DNA of 64,000 nt from Achromobacter sp. Root83 (GTDB taxonomy: Bacteria > Pseudomonadota > Gammaproteobacteria > Burkholderiales > Burkholderiaceae_B), in NCBI RefSeq assembly GCF_001428845.1, contig NZ_LMIU01000027.1:1910-65909 (forward strand), read 5' to 3'. How positions within the stretch are numbered: position 1 is the stretch's first letter; every line of letters begins with the position of its first letter. Under the pieces are notes generated by a model. It saw only the letters and a program-made list of their open reading frames with translations. It had not been told where the DNA came from and searched no databases. This document shows, piece after piece, positions 636 to 22,173 of the stretch. The translations under genes and the position numbers were made by a program.

Positions 636-3600
636 TCAACGTCCTGACACCGGCTTGCCCTTGGCCACCTTGGCAGGCGGCGGGACCGGCGGGACGGCCC
701 CGGGTTTGGCTGGAGGGTCCATGAGCAACGTGCGCGGCAGCGCAAAGCCGTCAAATATGGCTTGCGTGAACGGGTTGTTGGATTTTTCAGCCACGATCCG
801 GTAGCGCATCGCGCCGTCGTTGGCGGCAAAGCTGAGATCCACCGCATTGGTCGTGGCGCTGTCGAGCCGCGCCTGGCTAAGCAGGCGGAACATGGACCAC
901 GAACCCCGGTAAACCAGGCTGCTGCTGGTTCCGCTGCCGTTGACCAGCGTGATGCGGCTCTCTGTGTTGGCGGCCAGGCTGTTGGGCCAGATCAGCCCCA
1001 CACTGTTGGACGCGCCATGGCTATAAGAGATCAGTTGCCCCTCGACGCTCAATACGCTGCTGCGCCGTGTCGGCGTCAGGCCCAGGGGCTCGACGCTGAA
1101 TTGAACGCCCAGCGCTCCCCGGCTGTTGAAGAACGCGTCCCGGATCCGGTCCGCCGCTTCAAGCTGCTTCAGGACGTCCATGCGCACCAGATAGCCGCCG
1201 CGCCGCTGGGAATACAAGGCCTCCAGGTTGTCCTCCAGGAACAGCTTCAGGTATTGCTCCTTGAACTGCGCCAACCGGCCTTGCGGCCCGAACATGACGG
1301 TGAAGTCCTCCAGAGACGCGTCGACCCGCCCCGCCGGATTGAACGGGTAGCGATTGGCAAGCCGTTCGTCGTAGTAGCGGTAGACCTCGGTGTTCCAGCG
1401 GCGCTCCAGTTCCTTCAGCGCTTCAATCAGCAACACCTGGGACGATTCGTCAGCAAGCTTCTTGACCTGCGTGTTCAGCGGCTCGGGCATGCCGGCGGCC
1501 ATGCGCTGCAGGTTGCCGATAGGATCCGTTCCCTTCAGCGCAAAGCGGTCCAGCACGATGGTCAAGGCGGCCTTGCCGGGCTCAGGGCTGTCCTGGACGC
1601 TCTTCACGGTGTCGTAGACCCGCGCGATGGCGGCCATGCTTTCGTCCAGATACGAGGGTTTGTTGTCCGCGCCGACCAACACGCCCGTGAGCGGCGCGAA
1701 CGGCCGGGAGATGGCGGCGATCTGCTGGGCCTTGGCGGCGGTGGCCGGCGTCACCGGCGCGGGCTCTGTCTTGGTCCCCGCGACGGCGGCCTCGGCCGGC
1801 TGCAACGTGGTGTTGTCGCGCACCGTCTCCACCAGCCGGCGCAAGGGCGCTGCCGGACTGGTCACGCTGCCCAGCACGCTGACTGCCTGGGAAATGTCCT
1901 CGAAATCGACCACCTCCAGTCGATTCAGGCCGCGTTGCCACGTGTCGATGTAGTCACGGCTGTAGATGGCGCGAACCCGCTCGGCCAGGGCCTGCTTGTC
2001 GGCCTCGGAATAATCGATGCGCTGGCGTTCTCCCAGCGTCCATTGGTCGATCATGGCCAGATCGGTGAAGTCGTTGCTGCGCGGATCGAAGTAGCCGCGA
2101 AAGCCCTTGGCCGTCAGCAGGGCTTCGATGCGGGTGTCCTGCTTGTCCGTGGCGTTCCGAAGCCCTGCCGCGGCGCCGTACACGATATCGAAGGCCGGAC
2201 CGACCTCATTGCGCAGGTCCAGCGGCGCCTGCAGCGCCCGTTCGGCCTGCTCGCGCATGCTCATGTACACCCGCTGCGGCATCGGCACCTGCCGCAGCCG
2301 CTGCTGGACTTCCGCCACGCGTTCGCGATATTGCGGAAGGTCGGTCGCGGCGTATTGCATGGCATACGCAAGATGGCGCATCAGGCCATTCTGCACGGCG
2401 CCATCGCCCGGGTACGCACTCTGCCACTGCTTGCTCATCCAGTCTTGCACGATGGGCGCGCGACGGTTCTCACGGTCTTCGATCATTCGATAGACGCGCA
2501 GGGCGGCAAGCTGCTGGTCGCTATCCGCAGGCGCCGCGTTCACGGCATTCATCACGCCGCCGGCCAGCTCCGGAAGAAACCGCTTGGACAAGAGCTGCAG
2601 GTAGGCCTCGTCGACTTTCGGACCGATCTTCCGTCCTTGGTAGAGGCCCAGGTCCGAAACCACGGGCCAGGCATCCCGGTAGTCGCCGAAGACGGCGACC
2701 GCGCTGCGGATCTGGTCCAGAGGCTCCAGCAGATTGCGGCCGGTCGGGTCGGCGCGGCCATCGATCCGGTTGGCGCTGAATTCCCGGCTCTTCTCCAACA
2801 CCTGGTTGACCAGGTCGCGATTGATGCCGTAATAGTGATACCAGCCGCCAGCCAGCACCAGGCAGCCCAGCGCCGCCACGCCGAAACCAACTCGGAGCAC
2901 GCGCCGCTTGTCGGCGAGGATCTTGAGATTGTCGCCGGCAAGGCCGGCTTCGGGATAAATGATCCGCTGGAATACGCGCTGAGCGAAGTAGACCATGGAG
3001 CGCCCGCTGGGCTTCACGTCCGCCACCGGCTCGCTCAAGCCATACGAATGCGACGCGGCATTGATAAAGGCGTTGCACAGCAAGCCTTGCTGATACACGG
3101 AAGAAAAATACACGCCACGCGGCAGCGCGGGCGTGGTGTAGCGGTCGCTGCCCAGGACATCGGCCAGAAAGCTCAGCAAGACGGGGCGCATGCCAGCCAA
3201 CTGCCTCACCAGTGAAAACAGCGCCTCGCGCGTCTCCACCACGTTGGTGTCGCTCAACGCGTCGAACACCCGCTCGTTCAGACGCGTGATGAAGCCGTCA
3301 TAGCGCCCCGCCAGCTCGTCCAGCCAGGCGTCATAGTTGTTCACGGAGTCCAGCGTGAACGTGAACCCGAAGATGTCTTCGCGCACGGAACGCGGCAGGC
3401 GGGCAAAGAAGGGTTCGAAGCCAGTCAACAGATCGAACTTGCTGAGCACCACGTAGAGCGGCGGACGCGTGCCAAGCTGCCGCCCGAGTTCGCTCAGGCG
3501 GGTACGCAGCAGAATGGCAAGCGCCTTGCGGTCGCTGGCCTTCTGATTCAGCAGGGTGACCATGTCAACCATCAGCACGACGCCGTTGAGCGGGCGGCGG

Positions 3601-4355
3601 CTACGGCTGCGGCCCAGCCAGTCGACCAGGCTTTCCCACAGGCGGCCATGGGTGCCGGGCGGCAGGTCGCGGCGCGGCGCGGCGGGGCCGGCCGCGCGCG
3701 CCCCCGCGTTCGCAGGCGCGTCCGGCCCCGTCGCTTCAACGGGTTCAGGCACCGACTCGATCTGGCTGATCAATTCGCCCGGAGGGTCGATCAGCACGGC
3801 TTCGTCGCCCATCCACCAATCGATGGTGTACGCAAGATCGGGGTCGCCGAATACGCGCCGGCTGGCCGCCTTCAGTTCTCCCGTCAGCGAGAAATTCTGA
3901 TTCGAACGGTTGATGAAGCTGGTCTTGCCCGAATTCTCCTGGCCCAGGACCAGATACCAGGGAAGCTCGTAAAGACCGTTCCGGCCCTTCAGGTTGCCGC
4001 GCAAGGCGCTCAGGCTCAGGTCCAGCGCCCGCTCCTGCGCCTGCACGAATCGCAGGGCGGGGTCCTCCTGCAGCCTTGCCGTCTGTTCACGGTCGGCCTC
4101 CAGGTTGCGGTTACGGCGACGCAGCGTGAGTGCCCAGACCAGCATGGGAACCATCAGCAGGACCAGCGTCGACAGCACGCGCGCCGACAGTTCGGCAAGC
4201 GGCTGCCGTTCGCGCCAGGTCCAGTGCGGGCCGAGCCACCAGATCCCAATAAGAAGAAACAATATGCCCAGCAGCAACAGCACTGGCATTGCGCTCTTGA
4301 ACTGGCGCAGCACGGGCAGCCCAAAGCGCTTCATGAAAGCCCAGATCTTCAACAT
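636..4355 (-). CDS. tssM: TssM/IcmF/VasK inner-membrane core component of T6SS
   Basis: TssM spans the inner membrane and joins TssL in the cytoplasmic membrane to TssJ in the outer membrane. The protein has 1239 residues, normal for the family. Two membrane segments lie near residues 23-44 and 58-78. A cytoplasmic GTPase-like domain follows, with Walker A GQENSGKT at 138-145, an aspartate in VLIDPPGE near 190 and LSKFD at 305-309. A third membrane segment lies at about 487-507, followed by the long periplasmic part that meets TssJ. The C-terminus ends in a proline-rich tail. The ATG at 4355 has GAGGGAA upstream. The gene lies 25 bases after tssA in the same operon. Confidence 0.96.
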   Translation of the reverse strand: MLKIWAFMKRFGLPVLRQFKSAMPVLLLLGILFLLIGIWWLGPHWTWRERQPLAELSARVLSTLVLLMVPMLVWALTLRRRNRNLEADREQTARLQEDPALRFVQAQERALDLSLSALRGNLKGRNGLYELPWYLVLGQENSGKTSFINRSNQNFSLTGELKAASRRVFGDPDLAYTIDWWMGDEAVLIDPPGELISQIESVPEPVEATGPDAPANAGARAAGPAAPRRDLPPGTHGRLWESLVDWLGRSRSRRPLNGVVLMVDMVTLLNQKASDRKALAILLRTRLSELGRQLGTRPPLYVVLSKFDLLTGFEPFFARLPRSVREDIFGFTFTLDSVNNYDAWLDELAGRYDGFITRLNERVFDALSDTNVVETREALFSLVRQLAGMRPVLLSFLADVLGSDRYTTPALPRGVYFSSVYQQGLLCNAFINAASHSYGLSEPVADVKPSGRSMVYFAQRVFQRIIYPEAGLAGDNLKILADKRRVLRVGFGVAALGCLVLAGGWYHYYGINRDLVNQVLEKSREFSANRIDGRADPTGRNLLEPLDQIRSAVAVFGDYRDAWPVVSDLGLYQGRKIGPKVDEAYLQLLSKRFLPELAGGVMNAVNAAPADSDQQLAALRVYRMIEDRENRRAPIVQDWMSKQWQSAYPGDGAVQNGLMRHLAYAMQYAATDLPQYRERVAEVQQRLRQVPMPQRVYMSMREQAERALQAPLDLRNEVGPAFDIVYGAAAGLRNATDKQDTRIEALLTAKGFRGYFDPRSNDFTDLAMIDQWTLGERQRIDYSEADKQALAERVRAIYSRDYIDTWQRGLNRLEVVDFEDISQAVSVLGSVTSPAAPLRRLVETVRDNTTLQPAEAAVAGTKTEPAPVTPATAAKAQQIAAISRPFAPLTGVLVGADNKPSYLDESMAAIARVYDTVKSVQDSPEPGKAALTIVLDRFALKGTDPIGNLQRMAAGMPEPLNTQVKKLADESSQVLLIEALKELERRWNTEVYRYYDERLANRYPFNPAGRVDASLEDFTVMFGPQGRLAQFKEQYLKLFLEDNLEALYSQRRGGYLVRMDVLKQLEAADRIRDAFFNSRGALGVQFSVEPLGLTPTRRSSVLSVEGQLISYSHGASNSVGLIWPNSLAANTESRITLVNGSGTSSSLVYRGSWSMFRLLSQARLDSATTNAVDLSFAANDGAMRYRIVAEKSNNPFTQAIFDGFALPRTLLMDPPAKPGAVPPVPPPAKVAKGKPVSGR

Positions 4356-15310: not shown

Positions 15311-16293
15311 CCGGCCATCTGCTGGCTGACGCGAAGAACTATGACTTTTTCCGTTTGCTCGAGCAGTTGCACGGCTTGCACGACGACAATCTGGAAGCCC
15401 CGGAGAGCGCCGACCCGGAGCGCCACCGCGTCCGCCTGAGCAGCTACGCGGGGCTTGGATTTCCGGCCTCGGACGTGGCGCTGGCCGAGCGCATGCCCGC
15501 CGCCGCCAGCAGCGACTATCGGGTGCAGGCCACGTTTTTTGGCCTGCATGGACCGGACTCTCCCCTGCCCGGTTATTACCTGGACCGGCTGGCCTATGAG
15601 TACGGACAGGGTGTCGGGATACGTCCTGCCTTCCTGGACTTCTTCAACCACCGGTTGTTGACGCTGCTGCACCACGCCTGGCGCAAGTACCGCTATTACG
15701 TGCGCTTCCGGCGGGAGGCTCAGGACCGGTTCTCGCGCTATGTCTTTTCCATGGTGGGACTCGGCGACGTCGAGCTGCGCGGCGTCACCCCCATCGCCTG
15801 GAGCCGCCTGCTGAGTTACGCGGGCGCCATCGCCAGCCGCAGCCGCTCTCCGCACGTGGTGGCGGGCATCATCGCGCACTGCTTTGACCTGAAGACCGTG
15901 CAGGTGCGCGAATTCGAACTGCGCTACATGCACATTCCGGCCAATCAGCGGCTGGCATTGGGCAAGCGCAACGGCACGCTGGGCGACAGCTTCGTGATCG
16001 GCGATCGCGTCCGCACCCGCTACAGCAAGTTCACCATCGTCATTCCCGATCTGGATCAGAAGCGCTTTCGTGAGTTCCTGCCCAGCGGCGAAAACTTCGA
16101 GCGCTTGCGCAAACTGATCGACTTTCTGCTGCGCGACCCGGCCGCCTACGATCTTGATCTGGGCTTGCGTCAGGAAGAAGTGCCGCCGTTCAACCTGGGA
16201 CGCGCCAGCGGCGCCCACCTGGGTTGGACGAGCTTTGTTGCGCATACGGCGGTACGCCGCTCTTCCACCGTCAAAATCAAGGCGCGCCTATGA
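15274..16293 (+). CDS. tssG: TssG/VasB baseplate protein
   Basis: TssG is the second wedge partner of TssF. The 339-residue product shows 'NYDFFRLLEQL', 'RVRLSSYAGLGFPASDV', 'FFGLHGPDSPLPGYYLDRL' and 'FLDFFNHRLLTLLHHAWRKY', all diagnostic of VasB/ImpH. The start at 15274 lies within tssF. The stop overlaps the ATG of the next gene as ATGA (16290-16293). Confidence 0.95.
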   Translation: MAIAERQAAVDLAGHLLADAKNYDFFRLLEQLHGLHDDNLEAPESADPERHRVRLSSYAGLGFPASDVALAERMPAAASSDYRVQATFFGLHGPDSPLPGYYLDRLAYEYGQGVGIRPAFLDFFNHRLLTLLHHAWRKYRYYVRFRREAQDRFSRYVFSMVGLGDVELRGVTPIAWSRLLSYAGAIASRSRSPHVVAGIIAHCFDLKTVQVREFELRYMHIPANQRLALGKRNGTLGDSFVIGDRVRTRYSKFTIVIPDLDQKRFREFLPSGENFERLRKLIDFLLRDPAAYDLDLGLRQEEVPPFNLGRASGAHLGWTSFVAHTAVRRSSTVKIKARL

Positions 16294-17654
16294 ATCACAA
16301 TCAAGCCGAGCGCAGCGTCGCGCTCGTCGTGACCAATCCCCAGGCGCTCCAGCACGGCAGCACGCCCCGCCATCGCTTCGACGCCGCGGGCGGGACCATA
16401 GGCGGCGCCGGCGCCAACTGGACCCTGGTCGACCATGCCGGCCGGGTACAGCCTGTCCATTGCGAGATCCGTTTCAGCGACGGTTCCTTCTGCGTGATCG
16501 ACCGGTCCGGCCACACGCATATCAATGACGCCAGCGACCCATTGGGCGCGATGGTCGGCGCGCGCTTGAGCGAAGGCGACATCTTGCGCGTGGGGCCCTA
16601 TCTGGTGGCGGTTCATCTGCATGACGAGCGCCACGAGCTACCGGATGCGTCCCGCCATCTGGCGCAGTACGAGGTCAGCGAACTGCTCAACGAACAGCGT
16701 GGCGCGATGGACGACCTGCCGGCCGGCGCCTATTCGTTTGATCGCGACAAAGGCGGGACCGCCCAGGACGCGGCCTTTCAGGCCCTGGCGACCCATCACG
16801 ATCCGCATTCCGATCTCGATCCCTTGCGGGCGCTGGATGCCGCCGAGCATTCCGCCAGGCCCGCTGCCCCTGCCCTGGACTTTTCCGACGCCGCGCGATG
16901 GAACGTCGCACACACGCCGACCCAGCCGGACCTTGCCTCAACCCGATTCGCTGCCGTCACTGGCGCCCCCAAGACTACTTCCGGAGATCCCCGCATGTCG
17001 AATTCACGCGATCACTTCGTTTCCGACCAGGATTGGCAGGGCTCGCCGCTGCCCATCGGCGGCGACGCGTCGCAGGCAGCCGCGCCCTTGCTGCAGGGAC
17101 TTGGCGTTTCGCTTGGCCCGCTGGACGCGCAATCGAGCCACACCCTGATGCTGGAGGCGGGCCAGGCCCTTGGGGCGGCGATACGCGGGATTGCCGAACT
17201 GTATGGCAGCCAGGCCGGTGAGCAGCGCCGCATGGCGCTGAACGCGCTGACGTTGCAGCCCATCGAGGACAACCCCCTGCGCCTGGGGCAGAGCTATCCG
17301 GATACGTTGCGGGCCATGTTCTCCAGCGAGCGCAGCGTTGTGCATTTGTCGCCGATGGCCGCGATTGACGAGAGCATGGCCCAGCTCAGGGCGCACCACG
17401 CTGCCGTGATCGCGGGGATAGAGGCAAGCCTGGAAGCGTTGCTGCGCGCCTTTTCACCCGAACTGCTGTTGCAGCGTTTTCGCCGTTACCGGCCAGAACA
17501 GCCGCAACAGAGCGGCGGCGACGATTGGGCGTGGCGGATGTACACCCATTACTTCGAAGAGCTGAGTTCCGCCCGGCAGCGCGGATTCGAAAAGCTCTTC
17601 TGGGAGATCTTCGAGCAAGCATACGACCGTGCATTGCGCGCGGCTGCGCAATGA
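16290..17654 (+). CDS. tagH: TagH/Fha-type T6SS protein with a degenerate FHA domain
   Basis: The product has 454 residues. An FHA-like domain occupies about residues 10-100, a variable linker follows, and the C-terminal 150 residues ('RLGQSYPDTLRAMFSSERS', 'FSPELLLQRFRRY', 'FEKLFWEIFEQAYDRAL') match the TagH/VasC C-terminal region. In a functional FHA domain the loop reads IGR and later SxxH; here it reads I37-G38-G39 and V53-Q54-P55-V56-H57, so the arginine and serine that hold phosphothreonine are missing. No PpkA-like kinase or PppA-like phosphatase gene is seen nearby. The start at 16290 is chosen because it forms an ATGA overlap with tssG; the frame extends upstream only within tssG. 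Confidence 0.85.
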   Translation: MNHNQAERSVALVVTNPQALQHGSTPRHRFDAAGGTIGGAGANWTLVDHAGRVQPVHCEIRFSDGSFCVIDRSGHTHINDASDPLGAMVGARLSEGDILRVGPYLVAVHLHDERHELPDASRHLAQYEVSELLNEQRGAMDDLPAGAYSFDRDKGGTAQDAAFQALATHHDPHSDLDPLRALDAAEHSARPAAPALDFSDAARWNVAHTPTQPDLASTRFAAVTGAPKTTSGDPRMSNSRDHFVSDQDWQGSPLPIGGDASQAAAPLLQGLGVSLGPLDAQSSHTLMLEAGQALGAAIRGIAELYGSQAGEQRRMALNALTLQPIEDNPLRLGQSYPDTLRAMFSSERSVVHLSPMAAIDESMAQLRAHHAAVIAGIEASLEALLRAFSPELLLQRFRRYRPEQPQQSGGDDWAWRMYTHYFEELSSARQRGFEKLFWEIFEQAYDRALRAAAQ

Positions 17655-18679
17655 GGCGCGTCCTGTCCGTGCTGGTGGCGAACGCTGTCCTCGCCGGCTG
17701 CGGCACCGTGGGCGATGTCCTGACGAAGACGGGGCAGATACTGATGGATCCCTCCATTCCCGTCGGCGCGCCGGAGGATCAGCCCAGCCAGATCGGCCTG
17801 AGCCTTTATGCGGCGGATGACGTCAACCCGAATCCGTCGAGCGGGGCCGAGCCCCAGGCGGGAATCTCGACGCCGGATGGCGCCGCATCCCGCTCAGGCA
17901 CCGGAGGGCCTTTCGAGGTGAGCCTGAAAACAGGAAGCCGGCGCGAGCTGATCGACAGCCTGCGCGGCCTGCTGGGTGAACTGGAAGAGGACCGCCCCGC
18001 AACCCAGCCCTTGAGCCGCACCGACCGGGGATCTTCCCGCGTGGTGCACACCGCCGGCGCCCCAGGCCCTGCGCCGCTCGATTCGGCACTGCTCCCGGTA
18101 AGCGCCCTTTCGCCCTATTTTCTGCCCAATCGTCGCTTCGGTTCGGGGCCGGCCATGGCATCGCAGGCCGTGACCCGGGCGCCCTTGCCGCTGGCGTGGG
18201 TGTCCGACGAAGAACCGGACGCTGGCGCCGATGGCGACGGGATGGGCCGGGGACTAGGCCAATACAGCCGGGGACCCAGCTTTTCGCCCGTGGAGATCCC
18301 GGCCGCGCCCAAAGGGGTGTCCACCCCCATCGCATTCAAGGTGCTGCAGCTCAAGGACGATTCATTGCTATTGAACGCGGACCCGCAGCAGGTTGAGAAA
18401 GATCTCAAGAAGGCATTGGGCACGACCTTCGTGACCCAGGACGACTACGTCCTTCTGCCGGGGCAGTTCAAGTACATCGATTTCTCGCGGATTCAAGCGG
18501 ATACGCGGTACGTCGCCATCGTCGCCGACTTCCATGATGCGGACGGCGCGGTGTGGAAGCAGGCCTTTCGCCTGGAGCCCAGAGGGCGCAAGTATTCGCT
18601 GCTGCTGACCTTGCGCGGCAACCGCGTCGCCATCACCGACGAAAGCTATCGACCATCGCAACCAGGTTCCAAACCATGA
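17651..18679 (+). CDS. tssJ: TssJ outer-membrane lipoprotein with a large internal insertion
   Basis: TssJ is a periplasm-facing outer-membrane lipoprotein that holds TssM. The product has a lipoprotein signal with LAGC (Cys17). The TssJ fold is recognisable in two parts: 'IGLSLYAADDVNPN' (48-62) and, from about 223, 'STPIAFKVLQLKDDSLL', 'VLLPGQFKYIDF' and 'TRYVAIVADFHDAD'. Between them lie roughly 160 extra residues (62-222), rich in Gly, Pro, Ser, Ala, Arg and Asp. With them the protein has 342 residues, about twice the usual 150-180. The gene overlaps tagH and tssK by ATGA at both ends, and the frame is continuous, so this is not a sequencing frameshift. Function of the insert is unknown. 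Confidence 0.88.
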   Translation: MRRVLSVLVANAVLAGCGTVGDVLTKTGQILMDPSIPVGAPEDQPSQIGLSLYAADDVNPNPSSGAEPQAGISTPDGAASRSGTGGPFEVSLKTGSRRELIDSLRGLLGELEEDRPATQPLSRTDRGSSRVVHTAGAPGPAPLDSALLPVSALSPYFLPNRRFGSGPAMASQAVTRAPLPLAWVSDEEPDAGADGDGMGRGLGQYSRGPSFSPVEIPAAPKGVSTPIAFKVLQLKDDSLLLNADPQQVEKDLKKALGTTFVTQDDYVLLPGQFKYIDFSRIQADTRYVAIVADFHDADGAVWKQAFRLEPRGRKYSLLLTLRGNRVAITDESYRPSQPGSKP

Positions 18680-20013
18680 CTTCACGCAATCCCGTTATCT
18701 GGAGCGAGGGGCTGTTCGTCAAGCCCCAGCATTTCCAGCAGCAAGCCCGCATGTCGGAGCATCACGCCAACCAGCGCGTCAATGGTGTCAGCGAGTATCT
18801 CTATGGCTTCAGTGAGCTTGAGCTCAACCAGGAGTATCTGAGCTTTGGCAAGATCGCGATCGTGCGCGCGCGCGGCGTCATGCCGGACGGCAGCGTGTTC
18901 GACATCCCCAATGATCAGCCGCCGCCCGTGCCCTTGCCGATCACCGACGCGTCCGCGGTCAACCAGACCGTGTATCTGACTCTACCCCTGCGGTCGGACG
19001 GCGTGCTTGAAGTGCAATGGCCCGAGACGTACGCCAATGCGCGCTACCTGACCCGCAACGAAGAGGTCCGCGATACGCACAGCCAGGAAGGCGACTATGT
19101 GCCGATGAATCTGGCCGCGTTGAATCTGCAGTTGGCACTGGAGCGCGACGACCGCAGCGCGTTTACCGGCATAGCGGTGTGCCGGCTGCTGGACCGTCGG
19201 CCGGACGGCAGCCTGCTGCTGGACGAATCGTTCTACCCCACCGGCATTTCGCTGAACGCGATTCCGCCGCTCAAGCGCTACCTCGGGGAGATCGCCGGGC
19301 TGATGCGCGAGCGCGCGAAGAACATCGCCGAGCGCATCGGATCGCCCGGCCAGGCCGGCGTCGCCGACGTCACCGACTTCAACCTGTTGCTGGTGCTGAA
19401 TCGCCTGCATCCGCTGTTCCTGCACCTGTCGCGTCTTCGGCGCGTCCATCCGGAACAGGTGTATATCGCGTTCAGCCAGGCTTGCGGGGAACTCGTGACC
19501 TTTACCGATGAAGGCCGCCTGCCGCAGGAGTACCCGGCCTATCAGCACGACGACCCGCGCGCGTCGTTTCGCGTGCTTGAAGAGACGCTGCGCCGTTCGC
19601 TGAGCACCGTGCTGCAACCGCGCGCGGTGTCGCTGCCTATCGAGCGCCAGCAATACGGCGTGCTGACGGCGGCCGTGCACGACAGGCGCCTGTACGCCGA
19701 CGCCGATTTCGTTCTGGCCGTGCGTGCCCGCATGCCGCTGGACAAGCTGCGCCAGCAGTTCGTCCAGCAGGCCAAGGTGACCTCGATGGAGAAGCTGGGC
19801 GAGCTGGTCAGCCTGCAATTGCCCGGCATTCCGCTCCTGCCCCTGCCGGTTGCGCCACGCCACCTGCCTTTCCACGCCGGGTTCACCTACTTCCAGTTCG
19901 ACCGCAGCCATCCCAGCTGGCAGGCGATGCGCGACACGGCTGGCTTCGGCTTCCATATCGCGGGCGATTATCCGGAGATGGAGTTGCAGTTCTGGGCTAT
20001 CAGGAGCCAATGA
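18676..20013 (+). CDS. tssK: TssK/VasE baseplate-to-membrane connector
   Basis: TssK links the baseplate wedges to the TssJLM membrane complex. The 445-residue product begins 'NPVIWSEGLFVKPQHFQQQ', the classic TssK opening (phage receptor-binding-protein-like shoulder), and has 'HPLFLHLSRLRRVHPEQVY' and 'PGIPLLPLPVAPRHLPFH' later. The ATG at 18676 overlaps the tssJ stop as ATGA; an upstream extension of the frame lies within tssJ and is rejected. Confidence 0.96.
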   Translation: MTSRNPVIWSEGLFVKPQHFQQQARMSEHHANQRVNGVSEYLYGFSELELNQEYLSFGKIAIVRARGVMPDGSVFDIPNDQPPPVPLPITDASAVNQTVYLTLPLRSDGVLEVQWPETYANARYLTRNEEVRDTHSQEGDYVPMNLAALNLQLALERDDRSAFTGIAVCRLLDRRPDGSLLLDESFYPTGISLNAIPPLKRYLGEIAGLMRERAKNIAERIGSPGQAGVADVTDFNLLLVLNRLHPLFLHLSRLRRVHPEQVYIAFSQACGELVTFTDEGRLPQEYPAYQHDDPRASFRVLEETLRRSLSTVLQPRAVSLPIERQQYGVLTAAVHDRRLYADADFVLAVRARMPLDKLRQQFVQQAKVTSMEKLGELVSLQLPGIPLLPLPVAPRHLPFHAGFTYFQFDRSHPSWQAMRDTAGFGFHIAGDYPEMELQFWAIRSQ

Positions 20014-20014
20014 C

Positions 20015-20842
20015 ATGAAGACCATCGAAGCGTCTCCTTCCGGCGGCGGAAGTTTTCTGCGCACGGCCCCCGTCGCGGAGATCGACCAGAAAGAGTCCAT
20101 CGCCTTTGACACCATCGGGCATATCGACCAGGACGAGGATCTGGGGTTTCAACTCCGGGGCCATGGCTACAACCCCCTGGTCGACGGGGCACTCCCTTTG
20201 TTCGGGCTGGTCATCCGTTTACGCAAGCTGACGCATTACGAGGGCATTGAACGCCTCTATGGCACCGTGCGCGATCAGATCGCGGCGCTGGACGAGGAAA
20301 TCCGCCAGCATGGTTACGACGGCGCAACTCAGCTCGCCTATCGATACGCGCTGTGCAGCTTTATCGACGAGGCCGTGATGGGCACGCCATGGGGCGCGCA
20401 TTCCCCATGGGCCGAACGGTCGCTGCTCAGCGTGAACCACAACGAGACATGGGGCGGCGAGAAGTTCTTCACAGTGCTGTCACGCATGATGATGGACACG
20501 GTCAAGTACCGCGATGTGCTCGAGTTCAAGTATCTATGCCTGTGCCTGGGCTTCAAGGGCAAGTACGGCATGCAGCACAACCAGAACGAAGCCCTGCAGG
20601 CCATCATCGTCAAGCTTCACCGCGAGCTTCGCGAACTGCGGGGCGAGGTGCCCGAAGAACTTACCGACGCGCAGCAGAACATCGTGTCGCGCCGGTACAG
20701 CGTGGGCCGCCTGTGGCCATGGTGGACGCCCTGGCTGAGCGCGCTGGTGGTGCTGGTGGTCGTTTATGCCGCTTTCGCGGCCAGCCTGGGCGGCACGAGC
20801 GACCTCGTACTGCATTCCTTGGACGAAGTCCTCAAGAAGTAA
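20015..20842 (+). CDS. tssL: TssL/VasF inner-membrane protein (short form, no peptidoglycan-binding domain)
   Basis: TssL partners TssM in the inner membrane. The 275-residue product has the cytoplasmic DotU-type domain: 'NPLVDGALPLFGLVIRLRKL', 'ALCSFIDEAVMGTPWG', 'GGEKFFTVLSRMM' and 'FKYLCLCLGFKGKY'. A single C-terminal membrane segment follows the 'WPWWTPW' motif (about 233-258). It ends soon after, so the OmpA-like peptidoglycan-binding extension of some TssL proteins is absent. CAGGAG precedes the ATG, one base after the tssK stop. Confidence 0.95.
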   Translation: MKTIEASPSGGGSFLRTAPVAEIDQKESIAFDTIGHIDQDEDLGFQLRGHGYNPLVDGALPLFGLVIRLRKLTHYEGIERLYGTVRDQIAALDEEIRQHGYDGATQLAYRYALCSFIDEAVMGTPWGAHSPWAERSLLSVNHNETWGGEKFFTVLSRMMMDTVKYRDVLEFKYLCLCLGFKGKYGMQHNQNEALQAIIVKLHRELRELRGEVPEELTDAQQNIVSRRYSVGRLWPWWTPWLSALVVLVVVYAAFAASLGGTSDLVLHSLDEVLKK

Positions 20843-20865
20843 CGTGGCGCAAGGAGACTCCCATC

Positions 20866-22173
20866 ATGCCAACCGGCGCGCGCTACACGGCCCCTGCGAC
20901 GTCCCCGCCTTTGGAAGTCCTGGATGTGCTGAGGGTCGGGCTTAGCCTGGATGTGTACCGGCAGGGACAGGCATGGGACGCATTGCGCAGGCAGGACGCC
21001 GCCCAGCCCAATGCGCTGGGCTTGCTCAGCATCCTGCCTACCGGCCCCGGCGGATACCCGGTCACTGCCTATGCGAAGGATATGGCCTATGACAAACGGA
21101 AATCCGATGCGCTGCGATTGGCCCTGCGCGATTTTCTCGAGGGCTGGCCCATCCCCACTGTCACGGTGGTGCGCGGCTGGGACCCGGATGCGCCCGATCC
21201 CAGCCTGACGCCGGCGCAAACCCGGAAAATGCTGTCCGGCATGGTGGACCGGCTGCGCGATCCCGCCGGACTGCATGGACACCAGATCCGGCAATTGGAA
21301 CGCGGCGGAATCGTCTGCGACGACACCCCGGAAGGCGTGGTGGAGCATCTATTCCGGCTCTTCGAGGCAAACCCCGATCTGCCCGCGGTGTTGGTCTACA
21401 GCGTGGATGGCTTCAATATGGCCGCCACCTTGGGCACCCGGGGCAATCAGCCCATCGGCGTCGGCAATGGCCCGCGCCAGCCGGGCGAACTTACCGACAG
21501 CATGGTGGCGATCGTTATCGGCCGATCCGAGCGTTTGAACTGGCTTCGCGAATACGCGCGCCTTACCAAGAGCACCGCGGGCCCTGTCGATCCGCCATAC
21601 CCGGGCTGTCACGGACGCGGCACCTTCGTGCCCTCGCCTTTCGTGCCGCAACCGTGGACGGAGCGGACCTTGACGCAATGGGACGCGCTGCCCGTGCTGG
21701 CCAGAGTGCACCGCCCGGTCACGGCGCCGCTGCGGGACGCAGGGGGCAGACGCCTGCGGAATGACGCGCTCACGGCCGCCCGGGCATTGGCCTGGCGCCA
21801 GGCGACCCAAGGACTGTCCGCGGATCCGGCACGGGTGTTCTACGACGGCGGCCACGACGGCCACGGGGCACTGACCGACTGGACGCCGGCCTTGCGGGCC
21901 GCGCACAGTTCCGTCGATCTGCTGGCGTCGAACCAAAGCTACGACCTGACGCGGCGGCTGGGCGATACGGGTTCGGCATCGCCCTTCGTCGGCCTCGCGC
22001 TGGCAACCATCGCGAGCTGTCTGAACGCGGATACCAGCATGGTCGCGGCGCTGCGCCGGACCGATCAGGCGACGCTGATTGCCGTCAGCTCGCCCACGCC
22101 AGGCACGCCCCCTGGCGTCGACCCCTTTGGCTTGCAACACGCCCCAACCCAAACGAACGCTGCCCGGCCGTGA
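20866..22173 (+). CDS. Probable Tla3-like (DUF2875) T6SS lipase-adaptor protein
   Basis: A 435-residue protein without signal peptide or membrane segment. From memory its pattern fits DUF2875, the family of Pseudomonas aeruginosa Tla3, which loads the phospholipase Tle3 onto VgrG2b: an opening 'LEVLDVLRVGLSLDVYRQG', 'AKDMAYDKRKSDALRLAL' with 'GWPIPTVTVV', 'HLFRLFEANPDLPAVLVYSVDG' and 'DSMVAIVIGRSERLNWLREY'. The ATG at 20866 has AAGGAG 9 bases upstream; the frame reaches back into tssL but has no support there. It sits 23 bases after tssL and 52 before PAAR, so it is probably part of the structural operon. No Tle3-like effector or immunity gene is in the window. The T6SS link is strong by context; the adaptor role is inference. 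Confidence 0.6.
   Translation: MPTGARYTAPATSPPLEVLDVLRVGLSLDVYRQGQAWDALRRQDAAQPNALGLLSILPTGPGGYPVTAYAKDMAYDKRKSDALRLALRDFLEGWPIPTVTVVRGWDPDAPDPSLTPAQTRKMLSGMVDRLRDPAGLHGHQIRQLERGGIVCDDTPEGVVEHLFRLFEANPDLPAVLVYSVDGFNMAATLGTRGNQPIGVGNGPRQPGELTDSMVAIVIGRSERLNWLREYARLTKSTAGPVDPPYPGCHGRGTFVPSPFVPQPWTERTLTQWDALPVLARVHRPVTAPLRDAGGRRLRNDALTAARALAWRQATQGLSADPARVFYDGGHDGHGALTDWTPALRAAHSSVDLLASNQSYDLTRRLGDTGSASPFVGLALATIASCLNADTSMVAALRRTDQATLIAVSSPTPGTPPGVDPFGLQHAPTQTNAARP

Follow-up and report, generated by a model that had tools for sequence, protein, structure and literature searches.

The lipoprotein TssJ anchors the type VI secretion system (T6SS), a machine with which bacteria inject toxins, and grips TssM through the loop between its beta strands 1 and 2 (L1-2). 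In TssJ of enteroaggregative E. coli (EAEC), this loop is needed both for TssM binding and for Hcp release, and the described TssJ subfamilies have L1-2 loops of 5 or 8 residues (PMC3213119), a length that has been proposed to set the specificity of the TssJ-TssM pair. Here we analysed a TssJ from Achromobacter sp. Root83, encoded in a stretch of 64,000 nucleotides (the window), in which a much longer segment lies at this position.

A TssJ protein interrupted between strands 1 and 2

The tssJ frame runs from ATG at 17651 to TGA at 18677-18679 and overlaps both of its neighbours by ATGA, the upstream FHA gene (stop at 17652-17654) and the downstream tssK (ATG at 18676) (Table 1). Cys17 of the lipobox was invariant in 48 aligned sequences, and the Pfam model LPAM_1 matched the signal region with an E value of 0.0097, under that model's cut-off. 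The product matched PF12790 with 84.4 bits (cut-off 27) and TIGR03352 with 94.8 bits (cut-off 31.6). An AlphaFold2 model of the monomer, made from a 48-sequence alignment (mean pLDDT 71, pTM 0.55), had a core with pLDDT mostly above 90, and Foldseek with this model returned ten significant PDB matches, all of them TssJ entries (3zhn, E 3.2e-11). The modelled core and the Foldseek matches display the transthyretin-like beta-sandwich with the TssJ helices, and the gene lies in a T6SS cluster with tssK, tssL and tssM. By all criteria tested the protein is a TssJ. It departs from the described size classes in loop length only, its L1-2 loop being outside the 5- and 8-residue classes, which are classes of size and not a criterion of membership.

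Table 1. Features of the tssJ locus in the window, and FHA-TssJ fusions in other genomes
Feature	Position	Strand	Basis or remark
tssM (IcmF), presumed partner of TssJ	636..4355	-	1239 aa
FHA-domain protein (TagH/Fha) ORF	16224..17654	+	stop overlaps tssJ start
tssJ, T6SS outer-membrane lipoprotein with enlarged L1-2 loop	17651..18679	+	342 aa; PF12790, TIGR03352, Foldseek
Signal peptide and lipobox of TssJ	17651..17701	+	LAGC, acylated Cys17 then Gly18
Beta strand 1, residues 47-54	17789..17812	+	AlphaFold2; aligned with 3zhn
Conserved N-P-N, residues 59-61, immediately before the insert	17825..17833	+	alignment
Insert in L1-2 loop, residues 62-222	17834..18316	+	profile, alignment, AlphaFold2
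Module A, residues 86-113: GPFEVSL (extended) and amphipathic helix 97-113	17906..17989	+	conservation; AlphaFold2
Variable low-complexity spacer, residues 114-201, predicted disordered	17990..18253	+	15-19% identity in main parts; pLDDT <50
LGQY motif, residues 202-205 (G-x-Y = 203-205)	18254..18265	+	conservation
TssJ core domain, residues 220-323	18308..18619	+	PF12790 match
tssK	18676..20013	+	profile match
tssL/DotU ORF (longest frame)	19850..20842	+	DotU domain from residue 109; no OmpA domain
FHA-TssJ fusions	L134-L139, L143		genomes G536, G554, G526, G448, G513, G447, G531
FHA-TssJ fusion, coordinates	L149:5813-7162	-	
FHA-TssJ fusion, coordinates	L150:5537-6922	-	

The PF12790 match begins only at residue 220, at profile position 17. 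With phmmer, residues 38-68 and 219-328 aligned one after the other along 3zhn (TssJ1 of P. aeruginosa), the first of them weakly when taken alone, indicating that the TssJ core is interrupted by residues 62-222. In the AlphaFold2 model strand 2 spans residues 227-234, and 164 residues separate N-P-N from the P-I-A-F start of this strand. The initial annotation had placed the insert between strands 1 and 2 at exactly the position found here with phmmer and AlphaFold2. It had also put the insert in the loop that contacts TssM, which agrees with the sequence comparison and with the role of the EAEC loop (PMC3213119); judged by sequence, the insert takes the place of L1-2. Its reported richness in Gly, Pro, Ala, Ser and Arg was found as well (13% Gly, 13% Ser, 12% Pro, 12% Ala and 8% Arg in residues 62-225).

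Directly 3' of tssL lies a gene for a Tla3-type lipase adapter (20353-22173, +). Its listed frame begins within tssL, and its true start is probably downstream of the listed one. As this gene adjoins tssL, it may be followed by an effector module that includes a lipase.

Conserved elements of the insert and their distribution

Two conserved elements, overlooked in the initial annotation, stand out within a largely variable insert, one on either side of a spacer. The pattern P-[YFL]-x-[VLI] ... L-x3-[LV]-x2-LL-x2-L, a variable spacer and G-x-Y was common to 34 diverse insert-bearing members. Residues P87, L100, L107, L108, L111, G203 and Y205 were each kept in about 30-34 of these 34 (Tyr205 in 34/34, Gly203 in 33/34). 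Mean pairwise identity was 44% in residues 86-115 and 41% around LGQY compared to 15-19% in the spacers. In codon comparisons between species pairs, the whole insert had a dN/dS of about 0.2-0.4, well under 1, indicating that it is under purifying selection. Most values for residues 86-115 lay at 0.1-0.35, and those for the core at about 0.1. Across the clade the insert varies in length from 54 to 220 residues, and the shortest inserts hold both conserved elements near the TssJ core.

Helix 97-113 is the sole confident element that AlphaFold2 placed within the insert (pLDDT about 79-87), and pLDDT was <50 over most of residues 74-85 and 116-209, consistent with a disordered spacer. L100, I101, L104, L107, L108 and L111 share one face of the helix, which is preceded by an alternating extended segment; together they would have the usual appearance of a tethered docking peptide. 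No Pfam family was found in the insert alone at E values up to 0.1, and a search of nine genomes found module A in TssJ only; we therefore rejected an origin of the insert from another known protein. One PDB match, between the insert and a docking helix of a polyketide synthase (E 0.046), was regarded as chance.

Insert-bearing TssJ proteins (335-398 aa) were present in nine of about 40 sampled Achromobacter genomes, the window's included. Among 121 genomes searched (the window's own and relatives), the same nine and no others encode a TssK that shares 70% identity or more with that of the window, whereas every other TssK among the 121 reached 41% identity at most. The association of the insert with this TssK type in Achromobacter was thus full (9/9), and the remaining TssJ proteins recovered were without the insert. 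A scan of genome collections found further insert-bearing TssJ proteins in Pseudomonas, Burkholderia, Cupriavidus, Azoarcus, Dyella, Acidovorax and Paucimonas, and close relatives without the insert in Halomonadaceae. In a sample of 200 Pseudomonas genomes, 28 were carriers (full or two-part matches counted), many of them from a divergent branch in which the insert is about 90 residues long. The near outgroups without the insert were Halomonadaceae, Vibrionaceae, Rahnella and Proteus. In a class-wide sample, late entry into the PF12790 profile was seen in the window TssJ alone, the other late starters resembling truncated pieces. With carriers in nine Achromobacter genomes and in other genera, and with conserved elements, the insert is not the unconserved peculiarity, absent from all close relatives, that the initial annotation had allowed for. 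The other case considered there, that such inserts are common and already described, holds in its first half only: they are common within one T6SS clade, but an enlarged L1-2 loop was not found described in the literature searched, mostly papers outside subscription journals.

In the TssK tree the insert-bearing systems formed one clade with a support of 100/100, and the TssJ core tree, based on a shorter alignment, did not reject a single insert clade (p-AU 0.47). Every clade member seen retains at least part of the insert, whose history is most simply explained by one gain. Achromobacter harbours two distinct insert-bearing T6SS lineages (L005, L006 and L008 versus L001-L004, L007 and L009); one of them groups with L038, a sequence from Pseudomonas, suggesting that the cluster was transferred horizontally. 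The viral contigs searched contained no relatives, and the plasmids searched contained insert-free TssJ relatives only.

In at least seven Pseudomonas genomes, an N-terminal FHA domain is fused in frame to insert-bearing tssJ (Table 1). The fusion proteins (449-461 aa where measured) are encoded between tssG and tssK and do not contain the T6SS_FHA_C domain that is usual in the FHA protein. They keep an internal lipobox (GGC), ahead of which there is no conserved start codon. Such an arrangement predicts either a protein with FHA in the cytoplasm, TssJ in the periplasm and a membrane segment between them, or a precursor that would be cleaved at the lipobox. No description of an FHA-TssJ fusion was found in the literature searched.

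Possible roles of the enlarged loop

We tentatively favour, at a little short of an even chance, the possibility that the insert serves for docking, as a bipartite element tethered at the TssJ apex that makes an extra contact with either TssM or another TssJ next to it. An elaborated L1-2 loop would have been gained once in one T6SS lineage and then retained. Its working parts would be the extended segment with the amphipathic helix (86-113) and G-x-Y (203-205), linked by a flexible spacer that may drift in both sequence and length. The loop would project from the membrane-distal apex of TssJ toward the periplasmic domain of TssM, with TssM and other TssJ copies as its likely neighbours. From this placement, the loop most likely adds a second contact, either to TssM or to an adjacent TssJ in the multi-copy membrane complex. 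Several results argue for docking: the position in L1-2 (PMC3213119), the low identity of the spacer (15-19%) against the conservation of P87, L100, L107, L108, L111, G203 and Y205, the helix predicted at pLDDT 79-87 amid a region below 50, and the purifying selection together with the one origin in the TssK tree and the 9/9 association in Achromobacter.

The lack of a matching change in TssM argues against a contact with this protein. Coevolution with TssM, named in the initial annotation as a possible sign of function, gave no signal when tested; the C-terminal region of TssM was not enriched in shifts between the insert-bearing and insert-free clades, and no partner insertion was found in TssM. 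Within the C-terminal domain, a loop near residue 1146 is two residues shorter in TssM of the insert clade (GNSS--SL versus VNRSPRSL in Halomonas). In Pseudomonas plecoglossicida, TssJ (L053:6001-6720) has lost module A along with most of the spacer and keeps an insert of only 54 residues, GQY included, yet tssM is an intact 1230-aa frame without unusual changes in residues 1061-1140. The system of this species can thus do without module A, which also counts against docking.

A serious rival, albeit one that we consider somewhat unlikely, is that the strand-helix and G-x-Y fold onto the beta-sandwich of their own TssJ and so enlarge or stabilise the lipoprotein without contacting a partner. 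The helix has moderate-to-high confidence in a model of the monomer, TssM shows no covariation signal and both elements lie close to the core in the shortest inserts, all of which favour such capping; the core nevertheless folds without the insert in the Halomonas and Vibrio relatives, and without module A in P. plecoglossicida. Distinctly unlikely, in our view, is a contact of the insert with another envelope component, be it peptidoglycan, the outer membrane or a system-specific accessory protein. Peptidoglycan anchoring is common in T6SS accessory proteins (PMC7614798) and the window TssL is without an OmpA-type domain, but the insert-free Halomonas clusters are equally without OmpA domains and the insert matches no known peptidoglycan-binding family, whether OmpA, LysM or SH3b. 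OmpA-type domains were absent from the T6SS contigs checked, insert-bearing and insert-free alike, and since the two clades do not differ in this respect, there is no sign that the insert compensates for a peptidoglycan anchor. The peptidoglycan binding proposed in the initial annotation was thus not borne out.

We hold as more doubtful still the proposal that the loop is a second docking or gating element, one that takes the place of the canonical L1-2/TssM contact or regulates it, and that the FHA fusion of the Pseudomonas sub-branch could wire phosphothreonine signalling to the lipoprotein. A mere spacer or entropic bristle of irrelevant sequence, tolerated in a surface loop, would suit the mostly low-complexity, variable (54-220 residues) and predicted disordered character of the insert. 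This is very unlikely given the two conserved elements (Y205 in 34/34), the dN/dS under 1 and the fact that no clade member seen has lost the insert entirely. Finally, there is next to no chance that an assembly error, a frameshift or an unrelated antisense gene has been mistaken for an insert. An ORF of 170 aa (17823-18335, -) does overlie the insert, but its frame is not conserved in relatives and we dismissed it as a by-product of high G+C. An assembly error had already been doubted in the initial annotation because of the ATGA overlaps, and it is ruled out, as is a frameshift, by a tssJ frame that is unbroken in 28 further species.

Comparison with known systems

The extra piece of the loop is probably a real and undescribed part of the T6SS machine. 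A T6SS clade spread across beta- and gammaproteobacteria rebuilt L1-2 with a conserved strand-helix and G-x-Y, and the TssJ-TssM interface thereby becomes variable in a manner that can be tested. The natural deletion in P. plecoglossicida and the insert-free Halomonadaceae offer comparisons for this, and caution is advisable in modelling insert-bearing systems on the E. coli structure.

Like TssJ, the accessory proteins TagV (Serratia) and TagL are envelope-side supports of the T6SS membrane complex (PMC7614798); they are, however, separate proteins with peptidoglycan-binding domains of their own, and the TssJ insert matches no such family. The nearest T6SS lineages, Halomonadaceae and Vibrionaceae, have TssJ proteins with about 40-45% core identity to that of the window and the same neighbouring genes, but only a few residues lead from N-P-N to the strand-2 motif. 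With the TssJ/SciN/VasD/Lip family (PF12790, TIGR03352), represented by structures from EAEC (3rx9, 4y7o), Serratia (4a1r) and P. aeruginosa (TssJ1, 3zhn) and by the T6SS membrane core complex (6ixh), the window protein shares the lipobox, the beta-sandwich core and the gene order fha-tssJ-tssK-tssL. Whereas the described proteins have an L1-2 of 5 or 8 residues (PMC3213119), the loop of the window TssJ comprises about 160 residues with conserved sub-motifs.
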